Shown here: one piece after another, positions 7,604 through 61,238 of the stretch
How positions within the stretch are numbered: the stretch's first letter is position 1
How the letters are laid out: each line of letters starts with the position of its first letter
NCBI RefSeq assembly: GCF_900637655.1
Contig: NZ_LR134384.1
Span: 3,078,501 to 3,142,500, forward strand
Direction of reading: 5' to 3'
Origin: Segatella oris
Lineage (GTDB): Bacteria > Bacteroidota > Bacteroidia > Bacteroidales > Bacteroidaceae
DNA length: 64,000 nucleotides
Made by a program: the position numbers and the translations under genes
The notes under the pieces: generated by a model
The model's input: the letters and a program-made list of their open reading frames with translations, nothing else
What the model was told of the DNA's origin: nothing
The model's database searches: none

Positions 7604-7864
7604 ATCATACTAAACCTCACGCCTACAAACTAAATGTATCCGCGTGATAATCGTCCATATTTTGATTATGTTTTGATTTAACGCTGCAAAGGTAATCATT
7701 TCTGTTCAATTATGCTCATATATGCAAGAGAAAGTTTGGCAAGAAAAATGAAAAAGTAACAAGGGTGTGGTTTTCATGGGTTTTGATAACTGAAAGATGA
7801 AGCGTATTATACATTGGGGATAGAGGTTGATTGAAATGTAGTTATGTGTAAATTAATTTCGGGT

Positions 7865-8075
7865 TGAATTTGCATTCGCCTGTAAAAATCATTATCTTTG
7901 TGTCGGGGAGAGTGTGAAAGTGCTTTCCCCTTTTTCATGTCTTGTTGCAAAATCCCATGTAATCTGCGTCAAACAGTGTTGCAATATGCCTCAAAACGTC
8001 TCGCGATATGGCTGATATTACAGTGCAATATGATAGAGATTAAAGGTTGAAATGAATGAGATTAGCTGCCAATAG
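7865..8075 (+). repeat. Dispersed intergenic element, copy A: promoter, hairpin and 22-bp phased array
   Basis: This fills most of the 747-bp gap between corA and ddh. TTTG (7869-7872), 20 nt and TATCTTTG (7893-7900) form a consensus Bacteroidetes promoter. Directly after it a 10-bp hairpin (7905-7914 with 7921-7930) is followed by TTTTT. Then heptamers of the TGNNNCA class recur with 22-bp phase: TGTTGCA 7943, TGCGTCA 7965, TGCCTCA 7987, then weaker TGGCTGA 8009, TGATAGA 8031 and TGAATGA 8053. The element resembles copies at 33911-34207 and 43328-43622. Confidence 0.7.
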
Positions 8076-15837: not shown

Positions 15838-16007
15838 ATAAAAGTGATGTTTTTATTGAAGGATAGGGTAAAGACCAATCTGATAAATTCTCCTATGTAA
15901 GTTGTTTGTCTTTCAGCAGCACAGTCTTTCCTGTCTTTTTGAAGGGAAATAGTAAACGGCACCATTGAACTGACACCCTGTTTCGCTTGTAGTTTTCTTC
16001 TGGTTTT

Positions 16008-16040
16008 GTAAATATTGTTCCCCTGTTTTTAACACTTCCA
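16008..16040 (+). repeat. 33-bp dispersed motif, copy 1
   Basis: GTAAATATT followed by 4 variable bases and CCTGTTTTTAACACTTC recurs at 53585-53617, and in part (CCTGTTTTTACC) at 55858-55869. At both full copies it precedes a 22-bp phased array and then a TTTCAAATACGC motif, so it belongs to a second composite intergenic element. Confidence 0.55.
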
Positions 16041-16137
16041 GAACACACCAAATAGAAAAGAAAAGCTGCTCTCAATGCTTTTACGAAGTCATTTCTTGGT
16101 TTCTGCATTCCTGTTTCTGTCTCTTTGTCTTGTCATC

Positions 16138-16233
16138 TCAGTCACTTTACCGTGCTTTCTGAGTCAAAACACACAGTCATCTCATGCGAATTGCAAGGCA
16201 ATTTGACGCAAAAGGCAAGGCTTTTCTGCGTGA
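16138..16233 (+). repeat. 22-bp phased array, degenerate copy in the purL-mutS gap
   Basis: Cores in 22-bp register: TCAGTCA 16138, TGAGTCA 16160, TGACGCA 16204 and, one base off, TGCGTGA 16227; the position at 16182 is eroded. The 743-bp gap 15767-16510 holds only the purL promoter, the 33-bp motif, this array and TTTCAAATACGCGAG at 16334-16348. I see no gene in it. Confidence 0.5.
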
Positions 16234-16333
16234 TTTCACCTCTTTATTTGCTTCGAATTTCATAATAGCTTGATAGACAGAGTGTTGCAAACTATTAAAA
16301 AACAGCACGTATTTGGACCGAAGATGTCTTTCA

Positions 16334-16348
16334 TTTCAAATACGCGAG
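16334..16348 (+). repeat. TTTCAAATACGCGAG motif, copy 1
   Basis: Identical or nearly identical 15-mers occur at 24672-24686 and 53912-53926, with an inverted pair (CTCGCGTATTTT and GAATACGCGAG) at 55880-55923. The copies at 16334 and 24672 are followed by an A/T stretch and AAGGCTTTT, so the repeat is longer than the core. Confidence 0.55.
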
Positions 16349-16510
16349 TATAGCGAAGGCTTTTGTAAAGTTTCTTGGGGAAATACAAATTATACCTTCT
16401 TATATGCAATTATATGAGACGATTTGCAGCCTTTTTGTTAACATTCGGATAGGAAATACCGGATAAGGCGACAGACTTTCCGCATTCAAATGTATGTAGA
16501 AAAGTTTGAT

Positions 16511-24546: not shown

Positions 24547-24671
24547 GCGTGGTGCATAACAAAAGAAAATATAATCTCATCAAGGTTTTGTTGCCATGTT
24601 TTTCAGATTATCATACTTCTTTACAAAAGCCTTTTCAGGAAGGGCCTTGCCGAAAAATAAAATGCAGGTGG

Positions 24672-24686
24672 CTTCAAATACGCGAG
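24672..24686 (+). repeat. TTCAAATACGCGAG motif, copy 2
   Basis: CTTCAAATACGCGAG matches 16334-16348 except for one base, and is followed by TTTTAAGGCTTTT as in copy 1. Confidence 0.55.
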
Positions 24687-24772
24687 TTTTAAGGCTTTTA
24701 AGCAAAGGCTTGAACATTAGAGATTTAACTCAAGAAAAGCTTTCTTGGAGTTTGTTTTCGTTGTAATTGGGT

Positions 24773-24882
24773 GCTGATTTGACGCAAATTGTTGGCTGAT
24801 TTGAGGCAAGTTACACTTCATTTTGACGCATCTTGGCTTACGAAATGCACCATATTGCGGCGTGTTTTGACGCAAATGGCGT
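24773..24882 (-). repeat. 22-bp phased array, five exact-length units (dnaG-ndh gap)
   Basis: Five contiguous 22-nt units start at 24773, 24795, 24817, 24839 and 24861. The core at unit position 8 is TGACGCA, TGAGGCA, TGACGCA, TGCACCA and TGACGCA. Orientation is opposite to the arrays at 43.4 and 50.3 kb. The gap 24508-25227 separates divergent dnaG and NDH-2; apart from the dnaG promoter, this array and the motif at 24672 I find nothing. Confidence 0.75.
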
Positions 24883-25227
24883 GATAAGTCGATTGCTATG
24901 GGCAGATGAATAGCTGCAAATGAGTGCAAAATGGGCACTTATGTGACTTCTGTTTTCCTGGAAGGTGTTTCTGAAAGTGGGTGTTTTTTTACGATTTATC
25001 TTTACAAAAAGGATTGGATTTTCAAGGAGTAGTGCGGGCTGTTGTTTGTAAATTCACTCACATTTCGGCCTTCATGAACTCATGTTCTTCGTCTTTCGGG
25101 ATTGCAGCATGCTGTCTGCGGTTTTGCAAAGTGGGAGAAATCATAGAGAAAAAGGATGCTTTTTGTGGTTTCGGCACTGTTTTTGCTGTGTATGACAGCG
25201 TATTAATCGTATTGGGATAATAAAGAT

Positions 25228-33910: not shown

Positions 33911-34207
33911 GAAAAATAATCAAAAAACATGACAATAAGAATTGTTCCGCATGGTTCTGTTTTTCCATAAACAGCAAATTGTCTTCTCACATGAATGCTT
34001 CAGTCATGTCATTTGCATCATTTCGTCTTGCCATCTAAGGCATATTGCAGTGTGTTTTGCGTCATTTTATCTTGCGATTTGACGCATATTACACACTGAT
34101 TTGACGCATATTGAATGCCTTCTTGGAAGGAGTAACAAAAAAGGGAAAACCAAATTGCGGTCTTCCCTACGGCAAAGATAATCATTTTTTGAGGCAAATG
34201 CAAATGG
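33911..34207 (-). repeat. Dispersed intergenic element, copy B (full length)
   Basis: On the minus strand: TTTG (34204-34201), 20 nt, TATCTTTG (34180-34173), then hairpin GGGAAGACC / GGTTTTCCC with T6. Five contiguous 22-nt units follow with cores TGCGTCA, TGCGTCA, TGACGCA, TGCCTTA and TGATGCA, and a 3' part with AAAACAGAACCATGC and TTGTCATGTTTTTTGATTA. It aligns end to end with copy C at 43328-43622 on the opposite strand. It occupies the divergent rlmN / glycosyltransferase gap. Confidence 0.8.
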
Positions 34208-34294
34208 ATAATGAAATATCTTTACTTTTAGAGCGACATTAAAGAGCCTGTGGAAAAATCGTGTTTCAGCAGCATGTAATTCGATTTTATTTGC

Positions 34295-40020: not shown

Positions 40021-40031
40021 GTCGTTGGGCT

Positions 40032-40598
40032 TTAATCAAGTATTGGATAATAATAGTTGACGCCGAGACACCCCTCATATTGCTCAATCTTTACAGGCGC
40101 CCCGATTTGTAATTTATTGTAAAGTTTGTGGGAGATATATACCCTTTCATCTTCTTTTAAGTCATTCCATGGAGCGAGTTTTAAGTAATATCGATGCCCT
40201 TTTCCTGTTGTACTCGACTTATCTTTAATGCTCGAATCAAAATACTTTGGCTTAGATGGGTCGAAAGTTATATTGCAAAATATGAGCGTACTATAGCTAT
40301 AAACAAAGCAACCGATTAGTATTACTCCAATGAAAAGAAGCAAATCGCGCTGCCCATACGTTGGCGTTATGTGCTCATTTCGTGTGCAAAGATAAGTCAG
40401 GACGAGTGTAACCACGATGACAATCAACCAGAATTGAGAAGGAATATGAAGGAGATTCTCTCGCCAAGCACTATATAACAGGCCTAAAGAACAAACACTT
40501 CCTATCGACAATAGCGATGGATGAGGGTCTGTTTTACTGACATAAAATTTCGCCAATCCATGGCTTTTGTTGTAGACAATGATTGCAACGAGGGGCAA
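40032..40598 (-). CDS. C-terminal part of a probably frameshifted membrane protein
   Basis: The largest frame begins at a TTG (40598) and has no nearby ATG. Its frame also stays open upstream and encodes IHSIAALLPLVAIIVYN, a good membrane helix that continues naturally from KANKLKK at the end of the cytosolic part of the upstream gene. Three more membrane segments follow, then a soluble beta-rich tail (GHRYYLKLAPWNDLKEDERV and PVKIEQYEGCLG). The simplest reading is one gene 40032-41166 with a one-base frame change near 40618. Function unknown. Confidence 0.55.
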   Translation of the reverse strand: MPLVAIIVYNKSHGLAKFYVSKTDPHPSLLSIGSVCSLGLLYSAWRENLLHIPSQFWLIVIVVTLVLTYLCTRNEHITPTYGQRDLLLFIGVILIGCFVYSYSTLIFCNITFDPSKPKYFDSSIKDKSSTTGKGHRYYLKLAPWNDLKEDERVYISHKLYNKLQIGAPVKIEQYEGCLGVNYYYPILD

Positions 40599-43094: not shown

Positions 43095-43327
43095 ATCGTA
43101 GGAGTGATAGTTCAATATATAATCGTTTGCTGGTTACAAAATTAGTTGTTTTTTTCCAATTGTTGTGAGTTTGAAGAATAGAAAGGTGAATATTTTTGTG
43201 AGAAATGAGAGTAGCGCACGCTTCATTCAGGGTGCATCGTGAAGCTTTTCAGGGCGTTTCGAATGCGGTTTTCATAGCTTTGGAAAGCCGGAATGAACGC
43301 TTTGATTGTAAACTTAAATGACAGTTG

Positions 43328-43622
43328 ATTTGCATTTGCTTAGAAAATTGATTACCTTTGCCGTAGGGGAAGACCGCAATGTGGTTTTCCCTTTTTTGTT
43401 ATGCCTTGCAGAATGGTTTGCAATATGCGTCAAATCAGCGTGTCATATGCGTCAAGTTATATGCTGAAGTGACGCAAAATGCACAGCAATATGCCTTAGA
43501 TTGAAGGGCGAAATGATACGAATGACAGGACAAAAGCATTCATTTGGGAAGATAATTTGCAGTTAATAGAAAAACAGAACCATGCAGAATAACTCTTGTT
43601 GTCATGTTTTTTGATTATTTTT
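43328..43622 (+). repeat. Dispersed intergenic element, copy C (full length)
   Basis: TTTG (43329-43332), 20 nt, TACCTTTG (43353-43360), then hairpin GGGAAGACC / GGTTTTCCC with T6. Cores in exact 22-bp phase: TGCGTCA 43426, TGCGTCA 43448, TGACGCA 43470, TGCCTTA 43492, TGATACG 43514. The 3' part has AAAACAGAACCATGC and TTGTCATGTTTTTTGATTA, as in copy B. It lies between divergent aguA and the fetA-like gene. Confidence 0.8.
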
Positions 43623-49597: not shown

Positions 49598-50137
49598 TTA
49601 AAGGCTGATTTCTTTCAAGAGATTGCCATTGAGATGGAATATTTTTATGGTTCCATTTTCGTATATTCCAAGCGTCGGAGGATTGCCTCCTTTAGGAAAT
49701 GTGACCGACCCTGTGTTGCAAATAACGGTGTTTTCTGTCCTCTCAAGCTCCCAAAGATGGGTGTGTCCATAGATGATTGCATCAAAACTACCTTTGGGGC
49801 GGTTCACCTTATTATATATATGACCATGCGTAAGCAATAGTTTCTTACCCTCATCTACCAGAAGCATGTAGTCTTGCAGGATAGGAAAGGAGAGCAACAT
49901 CTGGTCGACTTCAGAGTCACAGTTACCTCTTACGGCCACAATCTCATCGGCAATGGCATTCAGTTTTTCAGCAATGGCCTTGGGGTTCAGGCCCTCCGGC
50001 AGTCCGTTTCGTGGGCCATAGTTCAATATGTCGCCCATGATGCACATCATGTCGCAATGTTGTTGATGATAGAAATCAAGCATTTTCTCTAATGCCGGCA
50101 GTGAACCGTGAATGTCGGATACCAATAGATATTTCAT
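49598..50137 (-). CDS. YfcE/MJ0936-type metallophosphodiesterase
   Basis: 179 residues from ATG 50137 (MKYLLVSDIHGS). Calcineurin-like motifs in order: SDIHGS (7-12), GDILNYGPRN, RGNCDSE, LTHGH and YGHTH near 140, all metal ligands present. Length and order match the YfcE family of small phosphodiesterases, active on phosphodiester test substrates; the physiological substrate is unknown. It converges on the TTD14-like gene with a 41-bp gap lacking an obvious terminator. Confidence 0.9.
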   Translation of the reverse strand: MKYLLVSDIHGSLPALEKMLDFYHQQHCDMMCIMGDILNYGPRNGLPEGLNPKAIAEKLNAIADEIVAVRGNCDSEVDQMLLSFPILQDYMLLVDEGKKLLLTHGHIYNKVNRPKGSFDAIIYGHTHLWELERTENTVICNTGSVTFPKGGNPPTLGIYENGTIKIFHLNGNLLKEISL

Positions 50138-50338
50138 GTTTTCAGCTTCGTTTGAATGTATTTTGTTATGGATGAATTCCAATGCAATATTCGGAATTTT
50201 CTCTGGAATACGCAAGTTTTGGAGGCGAATAAATGTGTAATAAGCATAATGCACATGGAAAACGGATTGTTTTTATCAGTTAGAATGGACTTCTATGAGG
50301 GGTGTTGAAGATGTAGTTTGTGTTATTTTAGCCCGTCA

Positions 50339-50435
50339 TCTGCGTCAAGTGACACGCTAACTTGCGTCAAATGACACGCTAACTTGCATCAAATGACACG
50401 CTGATCTGCGTCAAATCAGCATGTAATTCGCCTTA
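50339..50435 (+). repeat. 22-bp phased array, cleanest copy (yfcE-nrdD gap)
   Basis: Four contiguous 22-nt units from 50339 to 50426 read TCTGCGTCAAGTGACACGCT, CTTGCGTCAAATGACACGCT, CTTGCATCAAATGACACGCT and TCTGCGTCAAATCAGCATGT, each plus two further bases (AA or GA). A fifth core, CGCCTTA, is at 50429. The units are far more alike than at other loci, indicating recent duplication. The rest of the 612-bp gap 50138-50749 is A/T-rich with the nrdD promoter at its end. Confidence 0.85.
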
Positions 50436-50706
50436 TATTGCAAGGCTGTTCGTAATGTGTTGAGATGCAGGTTGATACAAATTTCAGACTGATTTGTTGG
50501 ATGAGGTATGTGGATTGTAAATCAATTAAATGATAATGTTTTACGTATTACATATTGATTAAATGTTTTCTGTTTTGAAAACAAAAACAAATCATGTTGT
50601 TTTCAAAGTTTTCCAAAAATTTTTGTAATATATTGATAACTAACAACTTGACATTTATTAACACGCAAAAAGTTGTCCAAAACGATTAACTTATATATTT
50701 ATATGC

Positions 50707-50749: not shown

Positions 50750-52972
50750 ATGATACAGACCGTAGTAAAAAGAGACGGACGAATAGTCGGTTTCAACGAA
50801 CAGAAAATCATGGCAGCCATCCGAAAGGCCATGATGCACACCGAAAAGGGTGAGGATGACGCACTCGTACAGAAGATTACAGACCACATTTGCATTCATG
50901 GCAAGAGTCAGATGACCGTGGAGAAAATTCAGGATTCCGTTGAAATGGAGCTCATGAAGAGTGCTCGAAAGGATGTAGCACAGAAGTATATTGCCTATCG
51001 CAATCAGCGAAGCATCGCACGAAAAGCCAAGACCCGTGACGTGTTTATGGAGATTGTGAACATCAAGAATAATGATGTGACACGCGAAAATGCCAATATG
51101 AATGCAGACACTCCGGCCGGAATGATGATGAAGTTTGCTTCGGAAACAACGAAACCCTTTGTGGATGATTATCTGTTGTCTGAAGATGTGCGTGATGCTG
51201 TGGCACATAATTACATTCATATTCACGACAAAGACTATTATCCGACAAAGAGTCTGACTTGCGTTCAGCATCCGTTGGATCATATTCTGGAGCATGGTTT
51301 CGTGGCCGGACACGGCTCTTCGCGACCTGCCAAGCGTATAGAAACGGCGGCAGTATTGGCTTGTATCTCTTTAGAAACTTGCCAGAATGAAATGCACGGC
51401 GGTCAGGCTATCCCTGCGTTTGACTTCTATTTGGCTCCCTATGTGCGCAGTTCATATATAGAAGAGGTGAAAAACTTGGAGAAACTGACGGGACGTGATC
51501 TTGCTTCACTGTATCATAAGGAGTTTGATGACTTTATTCTGAAAGACCTTGATGGGCTTGAAGGCGACGAAAGACTTTGTCAGCACGCTATGAACAAGAC
51601 CGTGAACCGCGTGCATCAAGCTATGGAAGCCTTCATTCACAACATGAATACCATTCACAGTAGGGGTGGAAATCAAGTGGTTTTCTCGTCAATCAACTAT
51701 GGAACGGATACCTCGGCAGAGGGGCGTTGCATCATGCGTGAACTGCTGAAATCAACGTATGAGGGTGTCGGTAATGGTGAAACGGCTATTTTCCCGATAC
51801 AGATATGGAAGAAAAAACGTGGTGTAAGCTATCTTCCTGAAGACCGGAACTATGATCTTTATCAGTTGGCCTGCAAGGTAACTGCACGCCGTTTCTTCCC
51901 GAATTTCTTAAATCTTGATGCCACGTTCAACTGGAACAGCAATTGGAAAGCTGACGATCCGAAGCGCTATCTGTGGGAAGTTGCGACAATGGGATGCCGC
52001 ACTCGCGTTTTTGAAAACCGTTTCGGTCCAAAGACAAGTGTGGCTCGTGGTAACCTTAGTTTTACGACAATCAACATCGTTAAGTTAGCTATTGAGTGCA
52101 TGCAAATCGCTGATAAGGAAGAGCGTATCAATGCTTTCTTCGCCAAACTCGACAATATATTGGAGATAACAGCTAAGCAGTTGGACGACCGTTTCCAGTT
52201 CCAGAAGACTGCTTTTGCCAAGCAATTCCCGCTGTTGATGACGAAGTTGTGGATTGATTGCGATAAGCTTCAGCCTTCAGATACGATTGAAAGTGTGCTT
52301 AATCAAGGCACTCTCGGTATCGGTTTCATTGGTCTGGCCGAATGTTTGAAGGCTTTGATAGGCAAGCATCATGGTGAAAGCGAAGAAGCGCAGGCTTTAG
52401 GTTTGAGGATTGTAACGTATATGCGTGACCGTGTTAACGATTTCTCGGAGCGTTATCAGCATAATTACAGTGTGTTGGCAACGCCGGCTGAAGGACTGTC
52501 GGGACGTTTCACAAAGTTCGACCGCAAGCGTTTCGGTGAGATAGAAGGTGTGACCGACCGCGAATATTATACTAATTCAAACCACGTTCCGGTATATTAT
52601 AAGTGCTCGGCACTGCATAAGGCACAGGTGGAAGCACCTTATCATGACCTTACACGTGGCGGACATATCTTCTATGTAGAGATTGATGGCGATGCAACGC
52701 ATAATCCGGAGGTCATTGCTAACGTAGTAGATATGATGGATAAATACAACATTGGATATGGCAGTGTGAACCATAATCGCAACCGTTGTATGGATTGTGG
52801 CTATGAAAATTCGGATGCCAAGCTCGATGTCTGCCCTAAGTGTGGCAGCCAACATATAGATAGGTTGCAGCGCATCACAGGCTATTTAGTGGGGACAACA
52901 GACCGTTGGAACCAAGGAAAATTAGCCGAATTGAACGATCGCGTGACGCATGTTGATGGTGCTTGTAAGTAA
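50750..52972 (+). CDS. nrdD: Anaerobic ribonucleoside-triphosphate reductase
   Basis: 740 residues. N-terminal ATP-cone (VVKRDGRIVGFNEQKIMAAI). The core has HDKDYYPTKSLTCVQ and NTIHSRGGNQVVFSSINYGTDT. The C-terminal zinc site C-x2-C ... C-x2-C is in CMDCGYENSD and VCPKCGS, and the glycyl-radical segment RITGYLVGTTDRWNQGK places the radical at about Gly711. It reduces NTPs to dNTPs under anaerobiosis, with formate as reductant in this class. Followed by nrdG after a strong hairpin. Confidence 0.95.
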   Translation: MIQTVVKRDGRIVGFNEQKIMAAIRKAMMHTEKGEDDALVQKITDHICIHGKSQMTVEKIQDSVEMELMKSARKDVAQKYIAYRNQRSIARKAKTRDVFMEIVNIKNNDVTRENANMNADTPAGMMMKFASETTKPFVDDYLLSEDVRDAVAHNYIHIHDKDYYPTKSLTCVQHPLDHILEHGFVAGHGSSRPAKRIETAAVLACISLETCQNEMHGGQAIPAFDFYLAPYVRSSYIEEVKNLEKLTGRDLASLYHKEFDDFILKDLDGLEGDERLCQHAMNKTVNRVHQAMEAFIHNMNTIHSRGGNQVVFSSINYGTDTSAEGRCIMRELLKSTYEGVGNGETAIFPIQIWKKKRGVSYLPEDRNYDLYQLACKVTARRFFPNFLNLDATFNWNSNWKADDPKRYLWEVATMGCRTRVFENRFGPKTSVARGNLSFTTINIVKLAIECMQIADKEERINAFFAKLDNILEITAKQLDDRFQFQKTAFAKQFPLLMTKLWIDCDKLQPSDTIESVLNQGTLGIGFIGLAECLKALIGKHHGESEEAQALGLRIVTYMRDRVNDFSERYQHNYSVLATPAEGLSGRFTKFDRKRFGEIEGVTDREYYTNSNHVPVYYKCSALHKAQVEAPYHDLTRGGHIFYVEIDGDATHNPEVIANVVDMMDKYNIGYGSVNHNRNRCMDCGYENSDAKLDVCPKCGSQHIDRLQRITGYLVGTTDRWNQGKLAELNDRVTHVDGACK

Positions 52973-53547: not shown

Positions 53548-53584
53548 AAAGCAGGAGAATAACGGCCAAGTAACTCTGCTTTTT

Positions 53585-53617
53585 GTAAATATTATAGCCT
53601 GTTTTTAACACTTCTAA
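53585..53617 (+). repeat. 33-bp dispersed motif, copy 2
   Basis: GTAAATATTATAGCCTGTTT and the following TTAACACTTC match 16008-16040 with changes only in the 4-base spacer and the last bases. Confidence 0.55.
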
Positions 53618-53693
53618 GTATCTCCTTCTGTAGAAATAAAGAAGCAGAAATAGGGGAGTTACCTCATGATTGAATTGATTTTAGCATACAATA

Positions 53694-53766
53694 TGGCGTG
53701 TAATGCATTGTAATTTGATGCAAATTACACGCTTTTTTGCGTCAGAATACGCGATGAAATGATGCA
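53694..53766 (+). repeat. 22-bp phased array, degenerate copy (nrdG-HsdR_N gap)
   Basis: Cores at exact 22-bp steps: TGGCGTG 53694, TGATGCA 53716, TGCGTCA 53738, TGATGCA 53760. The 613-bp gap 53548-54160 also holds the 33-bp motif (53585) and TTTCAAATACGCAAA (53912-53926), in the same order as in the purL-mutS gap. No gene seen. Confidence 0.6.
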
Positions 53767-54160
53767 GATTACGCTGTAACTCCATACAGATTGCAATACT
53801 TTTTGTCGTGATTTTACTGCGAATATCAGCTTGAAATTCATAACGTACTGATTTTCAATAGTTTGCTAAATGCCTGAAATTTGAGCGAATTTGGAGTGAG
53901 GAAGAGTTTTGTTTCAAATACGCAAATCTGATGAGAGCTATTGTAAAATTAGTTGAAGAAAATTAACATATAATTCGTTTCCTTATAGGAGTTGTCGAAA
54001 ATAGATACGCCTTGTTGCTGCGTTTGTAGGAGGATGACGGTTTACCTAAAGGTTGTGATTGAAAGAAAGTTTTCTTTTTGTGGTATCATTGTGTCTGAAT
54101 TTCGTTTTCGGTAGAAGCAGATTGTCTTGAAAAATTACCTGTTTAGAGGTTGATTTCCAA

Positions 54161-54619
54161 TCAAATTTGTTGAATTTCTTGATAGTTTGGGATGTCCTCT
54201 AAATATAAATATTTTTGATAGTTATAATCCATTTTGCAGCAATAGTGTTGGAGACCGTTAGACACAATGAGATAGTCTACGTGGAGTAGCATATTGTAGA
54301 CCGTGATTTGGTCAAACACTTTCTGTGTAATGGCAATATGGGGTGCCTTGTATTCAATGATGATACGCGGTTTCAGTTCACGTGAATAGAGTACGGTGTC
54401 TGCACGAAGATGCTTGTCGCCAATCTTAAGTTTCACCTCGTTTGCCAAAAGAGTTGCGGGGTAACCTTTGTGATTAATCAAAAAATGTACAAAGTGTTGA
54501 CGCACCCATTCTTCTGGAGTGAGAGCCACATACTTACGGCGTAAAATATCGAAAATCGTTGGCTTTGTGGGAGTGCCGGATAACTTTATTTCGTAATCGG
54601 GTAGGTTTAATGGAATCAT
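54161..54619 (-). CDS. Orphan HsdR N-terminal-like (PD-(D/E)xK fold) protein
   Basis: 152 residues from ATG 54619 (MIPLNLPDYEIKL). It matches the HSDR_N domain: TPEEWVRQHFVHFLINHKGYP, then the nuclease-type core KHLRADTVLYSRELKPRIIIEYKAP with Asp and E-x-K in place, and VDYLIVSNGLQHYCCKMDY. No helicase or specificity subunit is present. This small protein is conserved in Bacteroidetes head-to-head with holA, which hints at a housekeeping DNA role rather than restriction. Nuclease activity is possible, not shown. Confidence 0.82.
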   Translation of the reverse strand: MIPLNLPDYEIKLSGTPTKPTIFDILRRKYVALTPEEWVRQHFVHFLINHKGYPATLLANEVKLKIGDKHLRADTVLYSRELKPRIIIEYKAPHIAITQKVFDQITVYNMLLHVDYLIVSNGLQHYCCKMDYNYQKYLYLEDIPNYQEIQQI

Positions 54620-54698
54620 TTTATTATTTTTGCAGAGAAAGAACGGGCTGTAGATAAGGGCTTTCTTATAATTACAAGCCTCTATTGCCTGTTTTTTG

Positions 54699-54706
54699 CA
54701 AAGATA
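54699..54706 (-). promoter_or_regulatory. -7 box of the HsdR_N-like gene
   Basis: Minus strand TATCTTTG (54706-54699) in the 110-bp divergent region shared with holA; leader about 75 nt. Confidence 0.45.
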
Positions 54707-54729
54707 AACAATAAAAATAAAATATCGGG

Positions 54730-55764
54730 ATGCCTGAAAAGAAAAATACAGGAACATCGTATGAAACGATAATGCGTGACTTGAAAGCACGCAATTTTTC
54801 ACCTATATATATATTGATGGGTGAAGAATCCTATTACATTGATAAGATTTCAGATTATATTGCAGATAATGTGCTGAAGCCGGAAGAGCGTGATTTCAAT
54901 CAAACTATAGTGTTTGGCTCTGATGTTTCGGCCTCACAAATCGTGGATTCTGCCAAGGCTTTTCCAATGATGGCCGAGAAACGGGTTGTGATAGTGAAAG
55001 AATCACAGAACTTGAAAGGTACGGAACCTTTGGAAAAATATTTCAAAAATCCAGTTCCTTCCACGGTTCTTGTCTTTTGTCATAAGAATGGAAGTATTGA
55101 TAAAAGAAAGAAGATTATTCCAGCTGCACAGGCAGGTGGCGCTGTGATTTTTGAGAGTAAGAAACTTTATGAGCGCGAATTGCCTGGATTTATTGAAACT
55201 TATTTGCGGCAGCATCAAGCCACAGTAGAACAGAAAGCTGCCCAGATGATTGCCGATCATGTGGGAGCTGACTTGAACAGATTGACTTCTGAACTTGATA
55301 AGGTCTTGATTTCTTTGCCTGCATCTGACAGGAGGGTAACCCCTGATGTGGTTGAAAAGGAAATAGGAGTCAGTAAAGATTTCAATGCTTTTGAACTACG
55401 AAATGCAATCGTTCAGAGGGATATTTATAAGGCGAATTTAATTATAAAATATTTTGACAACAATCCCAAAGCAGGATCGTTGTTTTCATTTCTCCCAATG
55501 CTCTTTTCTTATTTCGAAAATCTGATGATAGCATTTTATTCGCCAAATAAAAACAATGAAAATGCTGTTGCGGAGTTCCTGGAATTGAGAAATGGGTGGG
55601 CTGCCAGAGACTATCTTACAGGGATGCGAAACTACTCGGGAATGAAAACGATGCAGATAATTTCTAAAATAAGAGAAATAGATGCCAAAAGTAAAGGTCT
55701 TGATAACCCAAATACACCTCCGGGAGAGTTAATGAAGGAGCTGATTTTCTTCATTTTGCACTAA
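54730..55764 (+). CDS. holA: DNA polymerase III subunit delta
   Basis: 344 residues. The delta-family layout is clear: IYILMGEESYYIDKISDYI (degenerate P-loop domain, no Walker A), VFGSDVSASQIVDSAKAFPMMAEKRVVIVKE, then the lid LPGFIETYLRQHQATVEQKA, and the C-terminal collar domain with AFELRNAIVQRDIYKANLII. It opens the beta clamp in the clamp-loader complex. It is followed by an intrinsic terminator. Confidence 0.92.
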   Translation: MPEKKNTGTSYETIMRDLKARNFSPIYILMGEESYYIDKISDYIADNVLKPEERDFNQTIVFGSDVSASQIVDSAKAFPMMAEKRVVIVKESQNLKGTEPLEKYFKNPVPSTVLVFCHKNGSIDKRKKIIPAAQAGGAVIFESKKLYERELPGFIETYLRQHQATVEQKAAQMIADHVGADLNRLTSELDKVLISLPASDRRVTPDVVEKEIGVSKDFNAFELRNAIVQRDIYKANLIIKYFDNNPKAGSLFSFLPMLFSYFENLMIAFYSPNKNNENAVAEFLELRNGWAARDYLTGMRNYSGMKTMQIISKIREIDAKSKGLDNPNTPPGELMKELIFFILH

Positions 55765-55800
55765 AAACACCCTTTTTCTACCTCTTTTTTCTCTAAAACG

Positions 55801-55826
55801 AGCACTCTTGAAGGGTGCTTTTTTTA
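55801..55826 (+). terminator. holA terminator
   Basis: AGCAC (55801-55805) and GTGCT (55815-55819), extended by weaker pairs, then T7, 37 bp after the holA stop. Confidence 0.65.
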
Positions 55827-55879
55827 GGCTTAAATCATTATAAATAAGCATTTTAACCTGTTTTTACCCCCTCTAAAAC

Positions 55880-55923
55880 TCGCGTATTTTCAAAATATAA
55901 ACCCCTCGTTCAGAATACGCGAG
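55880..55923. repeat. Inverted pair of the ATACGCGAG motif
   Basis: CTCGCGTATTTT (55879-55890) and AATACGCGAG (55914-55923) are inverted copies of the motif at 16334 and 24672. CCTGTTTTTACC at 55858 just upstream echoes the 33-bp motif. No 22-bp array is present in this gap. Confidence 0.5.
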
Positions 55924-55984
55924 CTATGGCGTTTTTAGCCAATTTAAGCCCCCTTGAATTTAGAGTTAACTTTTATTTGCGTTT

Positions 55985-56480
55985 ATAATAATAAACTTTA
56001 CGATACTAAATTACAACGGCGGCACCATGTATTTATGTATATAAATATTATATTTGTGTTTGTATAAATATATTCTTGTTTTTAGTTGCAATATGTAAAT
56101 GTATATATTTAGATATCAATTCTTATATGCATATATATGTTTCATATTATAATTTAACATAATAGCTTTGATATTCAGTGATTTATACAGTTTTTTCAAA
56201 TCAAATATCAATATAAACGCCTCGATTCTTATTTCTATATTGCATATCCATATAGATCTTGTTTAATACCAATAAATATCTATCTATAAACCAATAACTT
56301 TACTATACTTTGCTATATAAAGCATTATATAGTATTTTGACTTGTAAATTTAGTTTTGTATTTTATATAGCTGTTCCGTCACATGTGTATATGTAGAATT
56401 GTAAACTTTACAAATTAAAACATAAATTCTTTGATTCTAAATTTAATATACAATTGTTGCGTATCTCATTTTTTTGTTTT
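55985..56480. other. Very A/T-rich intergenic stretch
   Basis: About 500 bp composed mostly of TATA-, ATAT- and TTTA-type runs with only isolated GC spots (ACGGCGGC at 56014). It is the one long host gap without a 22-bp array. No ORF, no DnaA-box cluster (TTATCCACA) and no tRNA seen. Possible explanations are a curved/nucleoid-bound silencer upstream of the XRE gene, or a remnant of transferred DNA. Confidence 0.6.
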
Positions 56481-56487
56481 ACTTTTG
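56456..56487 (+). promoter_or_regulatory. Promoter of the XRE regulator
   Basis: GTTG (56456-56459), 20 nt, TACTTTTG (56480-56487); leader about 48 nt. Confidence 0.5.
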
Positions 56488-56539
56488 TAAAATCAATGAA
56501 AATTAGGGTAAAGTTCCCTTTTTTGCATGTTATAAGCTT

Positions 56540-60684: not shown

Positions 60685-60855
60685 GTGGAGGAAAGACCGA
60701 AAGAGACTGAAAAGATATTGCACACAGGATGAAATTCTAAGTTTTCCCTATTTCATGTAAACATTGCTTTCTATCTTTATTCAATTCGTTAATAATCAAG
60801 AAGTTATGAGTTTTGAATGGAATTGTGTGGCAATATGCTGTAGAAAAGCGTTGTT

Positions 60856-60965
60856 ATCTGCGTCAAATCACCTCGCCATCTGCATCAAGTTAGCACGTGT
60901 TTTGAGTCAAAATGCGGTGTAATCTGCATCAAGTTATCGCGTTGAATGACGCAAATTGGAAACCG
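60856..60965 (+). repeat. 22-bp phased array, five units (aroC-TonB gap)
   Basis: Units start at 60856, 60878, 60900, 60922 and 60944 with the core at unit position 4: TGCGTCA, TGCATCA, TGAGTCA, TGCATCA, TGACGCA. As at 7.9, 34.1 and 43.4 kb it lies downstream of a promoter-hairpin unit (the candidate small RNA). The remainder of the 809-bp gap 60513-61321 has an 18-nt-spaced promoter for the receptor gene and no other feature that I can support. Confidence 0.75.
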
Positions 60966-61238
60966 AGTATTTTGAAATCAGGAATTAACACCTTTTTTCT
61001 CATTTTCCTTCTCCTGCTTGGCTGTATTTTAAATTGGTAGTTTCAAGCCGATAACCTTTGCAAAGATAAGAAGGCGGTGCCGGCAATATGCCTCTGCATT
61101 CAATATTGCAAGTGGGCCGACATGGTTGTCACTGTTCATGATTTTTACAGTTATTAGCAGATTATAGAGGATGACAGCTTGGGGTAGACAGGGCTTAGAA
61201 CCAAATGAAAACCGTTTAAAATACTCATTTGTAGGTAT

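Follow-up and report, generated by a model that had tools for sequence, protein, structure and literature searches.

Arrays of 22-bp units built on a TGNNNCA core and held in exact phase recur in the intergenic DNA of the chromosome analysed, many of them in the middle of a dispersed element some 385 bp long. Their symmetric cores are conserved from copy to copy in this genome, the two halves show no compensatory pairing, and related genomes carry arrays of the same geometry made of other sequences. We give an even chance to the reading in which a dimeric protein, with dyad symmetry and a DNA specificity that shifts from species to species, would bind these arrays cooperatively as its landing strips. 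A phased array had been predicted from the letters of the window, the whole 64,000-nucleotide stretch analysed, which corresponds to positions 3078501-3142500 of a closed 3,168,212-bp chromosome. That observation is real; it is confirmed here and extended by a second dyad in each unit, the surrounding element, the different units of relatives and a kinship to BrickBuilt, a family of elements in Porphyromonas gingivalis, which likewise belongs to the Bacteroidales. The closest named relatives of the NrdD protein encoded in the window are those of Segatella paludivivens and other Prevotella-type bacteria, a comparison from which the window's own genome was possibly left out.

Runs of at least three TGNNNCA cores were found seven times at a step of 22 bp in the window, and not at all at steps 15-21 or 23-39. 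Pairs of cores numbered 22 at step 22 and 16 at step 44, with 0-4 at each of the remaining steps from 10 to 59. In 100 order-2 shuffles of the window the mean was 1.65 step-22 pairs (maximum 5) and triples were absent, so the comparison with shuffled DNA that had been proposed as a check came out on the side of the phase. At the site first described, beginning at 50341, four near-identical units with TGNNNCA cores at 22-bp spacing are followed by an in-phase fifth site (CGCCTTA, at 50429), as predicted, and the array has a TRF score of 117. The same register had been announced for seven further intergenic sites in the window, and a 22-position unit profile recovered all eight. The 16.14-kb site fails the strict test, with strict cores only at 16160 and 16204 within the array region, and was picked up by the profile (start 16138, 4 units, score 51). 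That eight of nine long gaps carry an array is about right: by our own gene call seven of the nine gaps of at least 400 bp do (those at 40021-40533 and 55765-56539 do not), and the 24.78-kb array sits in a 340-bp gap. The features are listed in Table 1.

Table 1. Arrays, dispersed-element copies and adjoining features in the window (window coordinates; a point marks features given without strand).
Feature	Position	Strand	Remarks
Array	7943..8059	.	Strict cores 7943-7993; profile extends to 6 units
Full-length dispersed element around degenerate array; family seed	16005..16387	+	
Degenerate array	16138..16210	.	TCAGTCA, TGAGTCA, TCATGCG, TGACGCA
Dispersed-element copy (model 31-377) around the 24.78-kb array	24608..24977	-	
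Array, 5 cores	24780..24874	.	
Array, 5 in-phase positions (4 are TGNNNCA)	34014..34108	.	Between divergent rlmN and glycosyltransferase gene
Type II flank	34127..34230	.	GGGAAAACC..GGTCTTCCC inverted repeat; GATTATCTTTG on other strand
Array	43404..43498	.	Strict cores 43426-43476
Metallophosphoesterase gene, neighbour of the 50319..50450 array	49598-50254	-	Divergent from nrdD
Array first reported	50319..50450	.	TGTGTTA, TGCGTCA x2, TGCATCA, TGCGTCA, CGCCTTA, in a single 22-bp register
nrdD, neighbour of the 50319..50450 array	50750-52972	+	Divergent from metallophosphoesterase gene
Full-length dispersed element	53582..53966	+	TTTTGTAAA .. array .. TTGTAAA-N14-TTAACA
Array, 3 cores	53716..53766	.	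Between convergent nrdG and HSDR_N gene
Dispersed-element partial copy (model 1-300) around the 60.86-kb array	60765..61064	-	
Array, 5 cores	60859..60953	.	

The arrays are not confined to the window. In 400 kb, taken as 20 evenly spaced 20-kb stretches, 18 step-22 runs of at least three cores were counted, and the other steps from 8 to 59 gave 0-1 runs each, except the double step of 44 with 8; strict step-22 runs numbered 40 in the 864 kb made up of 40 stretches together with the window. When the unit profile was chained in phase, 76 arrays reached a score of at least 20 in the 864 kb and a single one did so in one shuffle of the same DNA, the shuffle serving as control because the profile was built in part from the arrays it finds. 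Extrapolation from the 76 arrays gives about 280 per genome.

As to the earlier remark that genes carry none, nearly all of these arrays are intergenic: 38 of the 40 strict ones lie in gaps, with one in a weak 64-codon ORF and one at a stretch edge, and 73 of the 76 profile arrays are intergenic, the other three lying partly over weak ORFs. According to a simple gene caller of our own, strict arrays were present in 0 of 477 gaps below 250 bp and in 37 of 153 gaps of 250-3000 bp. The 38 intergenic strict arrays were distributed over 18 tandem, 11 convergent and 9 divergent gene pairs; per kb of gap the convergent class was highest, at 0.45 vs 0.27 and 0.33 for the other two. A distribution by macrodomain or for segregation was considered and rejected, since 98 loci (merged from the listed part of 240 matches) are spread over 3.17 Mb like random points, with a coefficient of variation of spacing of 0.99 vs 0.98 at random.

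The anatomy of the unit was derived from 186 units, selected as TGNNNCA, with the consensus AATTTG-MNK-CAAATT-RC-MNK-GY. Each 22-nt unit (AATTTGMNKCAAATTRCMNKGY) holds two dyads: A, whose centre is the middle position of TGNNNCA, and B, which is weaker and lies exactly 11 bp away. The predicted symmetry of the TG-three-CA core is borne out, the common middles coming as reverse-complement pairs at about equal frequency (TGCGTCA 51 and TGACGCA 43; TGATGCA 23 and TGCATCA 19; TGAGTCA 13 and TGACTCA 13). A TGA half is present on one strand or the other in 178 of the 186 cores, and TGCNGCA occurs once. Adjacent units are identical in 43 of 176 cases, 26 being expected in this genome, and the excess is a trace of tandem duplication.

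Base pairing across the dyads was scored in the same genome. Positions 2/4 and 13/15 proved anti-complementary (z -9.6 and -5.2) and the remaining variable symmetric pairs lay between z -3.5 and 2.9, the TG/CA pairs being fixed by the selection of units. Pairing in cis fell below pairing across units in the arrays of this genome (z -3.1) and of the relative G323 (z -3.2); the corresponding z values were 0.3 for G309, -1.4 for G328, -1.8 for the named set, 1.1 for G392, 1.6 for G092 and 1.7 for G164. Compensatory arm changes, by which a structured RNA or a REP hairpin would be recognised, were thus negative in two genomes and near zero in the other sets. Since the symmetric positions vary without base-pair covariation, the palindrome in this genome is a property of the double-stranded site.

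Many arrays lie midway in the dispersed intergenic element, the profile of which (384 model positions) was grown from the 16-kb site. The left part comprises an end TTTTGTAAA...TTTAACACTT, the block ACCAAATAGAAA and then about four array units; to the right of the array follow TGATTGTCAATGCATTGCAAAA, GCGTATTTGGA, TTTTGAATACGC and the right end CATTTGTAAA...TTAACA. With 37 copies of at least 110 bits in 864 kb, the element is, like a MITE, short, dispersed and present in many intergenic copies. Profiles of the two flanks matched 42 (right) and 29 (left) times in the same DNA, and exact TTGTAAA-N12..16-TTAACA was found 15 times, in all 15 cases in or within 60 bp of elements. Orientation relative to the neighbouring genes is mixed. 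Median pairwise identity between copies is 46% (alignment including 60 bp outside each side), and the copies are old. The left-right flank distance is 120-124 bp in 17 of the 28 paired copies and at most 195 bp; because no paired flanks are farther apart, no gene-bearing copy was seen among these 28 pairs in 864 kb, where a further 14 right and 1 left matches had no partner. Measured from the right flank, the phase of the last core is the same in 34 of 38 rows (sought over 30 nt). Terminal inverted repeats were not found in the 27 copies with both ends, the best 12-nt match between the left end and the reverse-complemented right end being 8.04 vs 8.01 after shuffling; the ends are alike directly (direct match 9.15), not inverted. 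As to target duplication, the mean longest word shared outside the element was 4.74 vs 4.51 for re-paired sides (p 0.11).

By single-linkage grouping, 128 of 197 flanks of 100 arrays fell into six groups of at least three members. The groups of 50 and 45 are the two sides of the element just described, those of 12 and 3 belong to the two sides of a different one, and those of 11 and 7 co-occur at two arrays. Because the groups pair into three sets, at least three kinds of array surroundings exist, and arrays occur with unrelated flanks. The group of 11 (L012, L025, L038, L040, L176 and L179 of this genome) is an intergenic repeat with palindromic CAACTCGGTACGAGTTG, altered in one copy. In the window the type II flank is similar to what lies left of the arrays at 43.4 and 7.9 kb, and at 7830-7938, 34127-34230 and 43300-43421 a GGGGAAGACC..GGTTTTCCC-like inverted repeat adjoins a TATCTTTG/TACCTTTG box, which we take to be similar to the Bacteroidetes -7 promoter element. 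The motif TTGATNRTCAA was tried as a general companion of the arrays (6 near the arrays of this genome vs 1.2 expected) and dropped, as in relatives it was met once near the arrays of G323 (0.5 expected) and not at all near those of four other genomes.

Conservation was compared over the ungapped array in 31 element copies, selected by the right-flank profile. Mean pairwise identity was 0.75 in the TG/CA columns and 0.48 where columns lie outside the A core. In the two dyad-centre columns it was 0.31 and 0.29, vs 0.26 from composition. Since the right-flank profile was derived from copies first found by the whole element, with a possible bias to good arrays, this test is not wholly free of selection. 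The values suggest that old copies have kept their putative contacts and lost the centres. The same element position alternates among TGANGCA, TGCNTCA and TGANTCA from copy to copy, and TGCNGCA occurs in none of the 31 copies and twice in the 38-row phase table, both times out of the common register.

A comparison at shorter range was provided by the close pair G328 and G170 (93% identity), in which 13 clusters, some of them weak and A+T-rich, were compared. In the arrays 67 of 1148 sites had changed and in the surrounding 150 bp 81 of 1392, so conservation is no higher in the former; both rates lie below those of all intergenic DNA (1113 of 10537) and of third codon positions (3602 of 26119). 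Substitutions affected 31 of 620 sites in high-information phases and 36 of 619 in the others (p 0.53, with low power), which stands against strong site-level constraint there. Between the two species the 13 clusters differ by 2 gap positions in total. The orthologous arrays G170:C136 and G328:C88 (L143, L140) differ inside mainly at one B-dyad centre, by CCTT to GAGA, a pattern that is not general over all 13 clusters.

Of 398 genomes sampled in the genus, 18 had a match at E 1e-5 to the profile of this genome, which is itself one of the 18, with at most 14 candidates scored per genome. In a set of 60 relatives there were three matches, namely the genome itself and two congeners; the 24 members that belong to other families of the order gave no match. 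In matching relatives the units differ: G392 has TGCACCA with AAACGCANTGCGTTT, G092 TGACTCA with TATTACNNNGTAATA and G309 TGCSGCA, and G164 has a distinct TTAWTAA/GTAG unit type in phase with a TGCGGCA array. A scan free of any consensus counted lag-22 clusters against the median of other lags. The excess was clear in this genome (80 vs 7), G323 (19 vs 2), G092 (8 vs 1) and G023 (7 vs 1), less marked in G309 (12 vs 2, lag 33 being higher), G164 (5 vs 1), G392 (33 vs 19) and G099 (11 vs 5), masked stretches of N having inflated the counts of the last two; G404 showed none (3 vs 2).

Palindromic clusters at lag 22 (p<0.05) made up 33 of 82 in this genome, where nine other lags gave 14 of 140, and 9 of 20 in G323, 9 of 12 in G309, 9 of 18 in G392, 6 of 8 in G092, 4 of 5 in G164, 2 of 6 in G099, 1 of 7 in G023 and 0 of 3 in G404. 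Around nrdD in 80 named genomes, genic clusters included, 16 of 26 lag-22 clusters were palindromic (p<0.03), vs 33 of 243 at the remaining lags from 15 to 28. Fourteen of these 16 are from Prevotella-type bacteria, one is from a Mediterranea and one from an unplaced Bacteroidales MAG, and their sequences vary by locus. The named species carry units other than TGNNNCA; the one strict TGNNNCA run in the 80 loci, in Bacteroides rodentium, is not palindromic (p 0.57). A base-centred dyad was found in 34 of 35 palindromic arrays of this genome, and in 48 of 56 others, with 12 of 17 in the named set by itself, vs 39% under column permutation of the consensus of this genome, counts that are not independent trials because the species share ancestry. 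The A+T maximum lies at a distance of 4-5 bp from each dyad, giving a peak every 11 bp, in seven of eight sets (not in G164). The flanks of the element are almost absent from the sampled relatives, with 1 clear copy in 192 kb of G323. We tentatively propose a Prevotellaceae-wide class of arrays in which the period of 22 bp, the two base-centred dyads per unit and the 11-bp A+T phasing would be fixed, while the sequence would turn over and specificities would coexist.

A second 22-bp array type, CTAC-N-TTAWTAA-N-GTAG or CGTAGG-TTAWTAA, was seen in G164 (L243 4848, L244 2486, L245 13206 and L246 11802) and G309 (L183 16124 and L187 14271), both of which have the TGNNNCA type as well; arrays of the two types adjoin each other in G164 without a break of register. 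A second array type stands beside the first in G323 too. In G099 (L231 6857-7077) about 10 units of AATTATCCAAACGTGGAGAACA switch midway to AGTTATACAAACGTGTATAATG with the 22-bp step kept.

In the reading that we prefer, each 22-bp unit would offer two base-centred dyads 11 bp apart. The stronger is the A site, TTTG-NNN-CAAA, where one half or both read TGA in nearly all cases; the B site, RC-NNN-GY, is weaker. Because A+T-rich steps lie midway between the dyads, successive sites would come to lie on one face of bendable DNA. A dimer may bind every 22 bp, perhaps every 11, along three to six units of intergenic DNA, often as the fixed centre of the composite element with its further conserved blocks, and may bend or wrap the DNA; in this genome the conserved contacts would be TG/CA with a TGA half, and specificity would drift between species. 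A protein that requires fixed spacing and dyad geometry, not a fixed sequence, would be the simplest common cause, and one might guess that the complex forms a local nucleoprotein structure separating or organising neighbouring transcription units. The exact phase, the near-equal use of both core orientations, the core conservation across the 31 copies, the lack of compensation, the presence of arrays in unrelated flanks, the base-centred dyads and the A+T phasing argue for a binding array; the G328/G170 substitutions, the excess of identical neighbours, the two arrays that fold well (see below) and the poor conservation of array positions argue against it. The cooperative array of the original prediction fits, because of the strict phase, the symmetric core and the core conservation across copies. 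The roles suggested with it were those of a nucleoid organiser, segregation or a regulator; the random-like loci and the 11 of 38 arrays between convergent genes point neither to an ori/ter segregation site nor to a promoter operator.

The strongest rival, which we regard as unlikely, takes the arrays for selfish or neutral repeats, a minisatellite within old miniature elements that spread and decay with no host function, the differences between species reflecting a separate repeat amplified in each. Dispersed families that share their flanks, the surplus of identical adjacent units, G328/G170 substitutions that are not concentrated at low-information phases and element flanks nearly missing in sampled relatives all agree with it. 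It accords poorly with core columns conserved beside centres near background, with an element that has neither terminal inverted repeats nor significant target duplication, with an array length and phase that are mostly fixed, and with a geometry common to unrelated sequences. A recombinase or transposase that moves the elements by binding the arrays, or their remnants, is quite improbable: the arrays are central and not terminal, the ends are alike directly and not inverted, the copies are old, and a gene-bearing copy is missing among the 28 flank pairs, even though the period of 22, the position inside dispersed elements with conserved ends and the second array type beside the first in G164 and G323 would suit such an enzyme.

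Were the arrays operators of one regulon, controlling the adjoining genes, the nine between divergent genes would be well placed; the 11 between convergent genes, where promoters are not expected and the rate per kb is highest, and the mixed orientation of the element to its neighbours make this very improbable. We give almost no credence to a structured RNA or cruciform in which the palindromic units act as hairpins. The consensus is indeed palindromic, two of five arrays fold better than shuffles as RNA (z -2.3 and -3.65; the others -0.8, -0.5 and -0.03) and cis pairing is weakly positive in G392, G092 and G164. Symmetric positions in this genome, however, are not complementary above expectation, those next to the centres are anti-complementary, cis pairing is below cross-unit pairing here and in G323, and Rfam finds only a tRNA in the window. 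Because the half-sites do not compensate, a hairpin or RNA function is not supported in this genome.

Several known systems resemble the arrays. The BIMEs and REPs of enterobacteria, present in hundreds of copies and bound by protein, are intergenic mosaics that combine conserved blocks with palindromic units. The mosaic structure is the likeness; REPs act as stem-loops and have no 22-bp phase, whereas the arrays here lack compensatory pairing. Iterons and the ParR/parC centromere repeats are short phased repeats with cooperative dimer binding (22 bp in R6K iterons, 11 bp in R1 parC), but they are single loci near replication or partition genes, and the arrays here occupy 98 loci chromosome-wide in place of one or a few. 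TnsB of Tn7 and MuA of phage Mu bind arrays of 22-bp sites, which lie at the ends of the transposon next to its transposase genes; those sites are not palindromic, whereas the arrays here are central and dyad-symmetric, with no gene-bearing copy seen.

The closest described thing, in the literature at hand, is BrickBuilt of P. gingivalis. BrickBuilt comprises dispersed intergenic elements with a leader, tandem 23-nt repeats and a tail (Klein et al. 2015, PMC4596501), 19 in number, with IS-like terminal inverted repeats and a repeat number that varies between strains, viewed by the authors as a minisatellite within a MITE (PMC4596501). Both families are dispersed intergenic elements with internal tandem near-palindromic repeats, the BrickBuilt consensus being near-palindromic by our computation (p 0.006). 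They differ in the repeat (AGAYCATARTATCCTCTCRTRTG of 23 nt vs AATTTGMNKCAAATTRCMNKGY of 22 nt), in number and ends (19 elements with terminal inverted repeats vs about 280 arrays per genome and a main element without such repeats) and in variability (repeat number changing between strains vs mostly 3-6 units here, with at least three flank kinds). No description of 22-bp arrays in Prevotella was found in the literature covered, most subscription journals and preprints lying outside that coverage, and titles and abstract beginnings name only the P. gingivalis elements as comparable in Bacteroidales. The earlier remark, whose author knew of no described family with this form, missed BrickBuilt, a close relative.

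Intergenic DNA of a kind abundant in Prevotella-type bacteria gains a precise, testable form, and the likeness to BrickBuilt suggests that the latter belongs to a wider class of palindromic minisatellites. If a protein binds the arrays, a major DNA-binding protein of Bacteroidota is still to be found, and the change of sequence under constant geometry would be a bacterial case of protein-repeat co-evolution, comparable to eukaryotic centromeres. A Prevotellaceae-wide class, if true, would imply a family of DNA-binding proteins with rigid quaternary geometry and fast-changing specificity that coats hundreds of intergenic sites, and a chromatin-like or selfish system not yet described.

The position of arrays is not well conserved among relatives. 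A conserved position around nrdD/nrdG was considered and is not claimed: 5 of 19 relatives reach 26 of 44 lag-22 matches upstream of nrdD, and in one of these five lag 22 is no better there than other lags. G323 has an array upstream of nrdD, but its nrdG-HSDR_N gap is just about 86 bp, with no room for the nrdG-side element of the window. In the window a stand-alone HSDR_N domain protein (Pfam PF13588) is encoded at 54161-54802 (-), between nrdG and the DNA polymerase III delta gene, and the HSDR_N gene adjoins nrdG in several relatives too.
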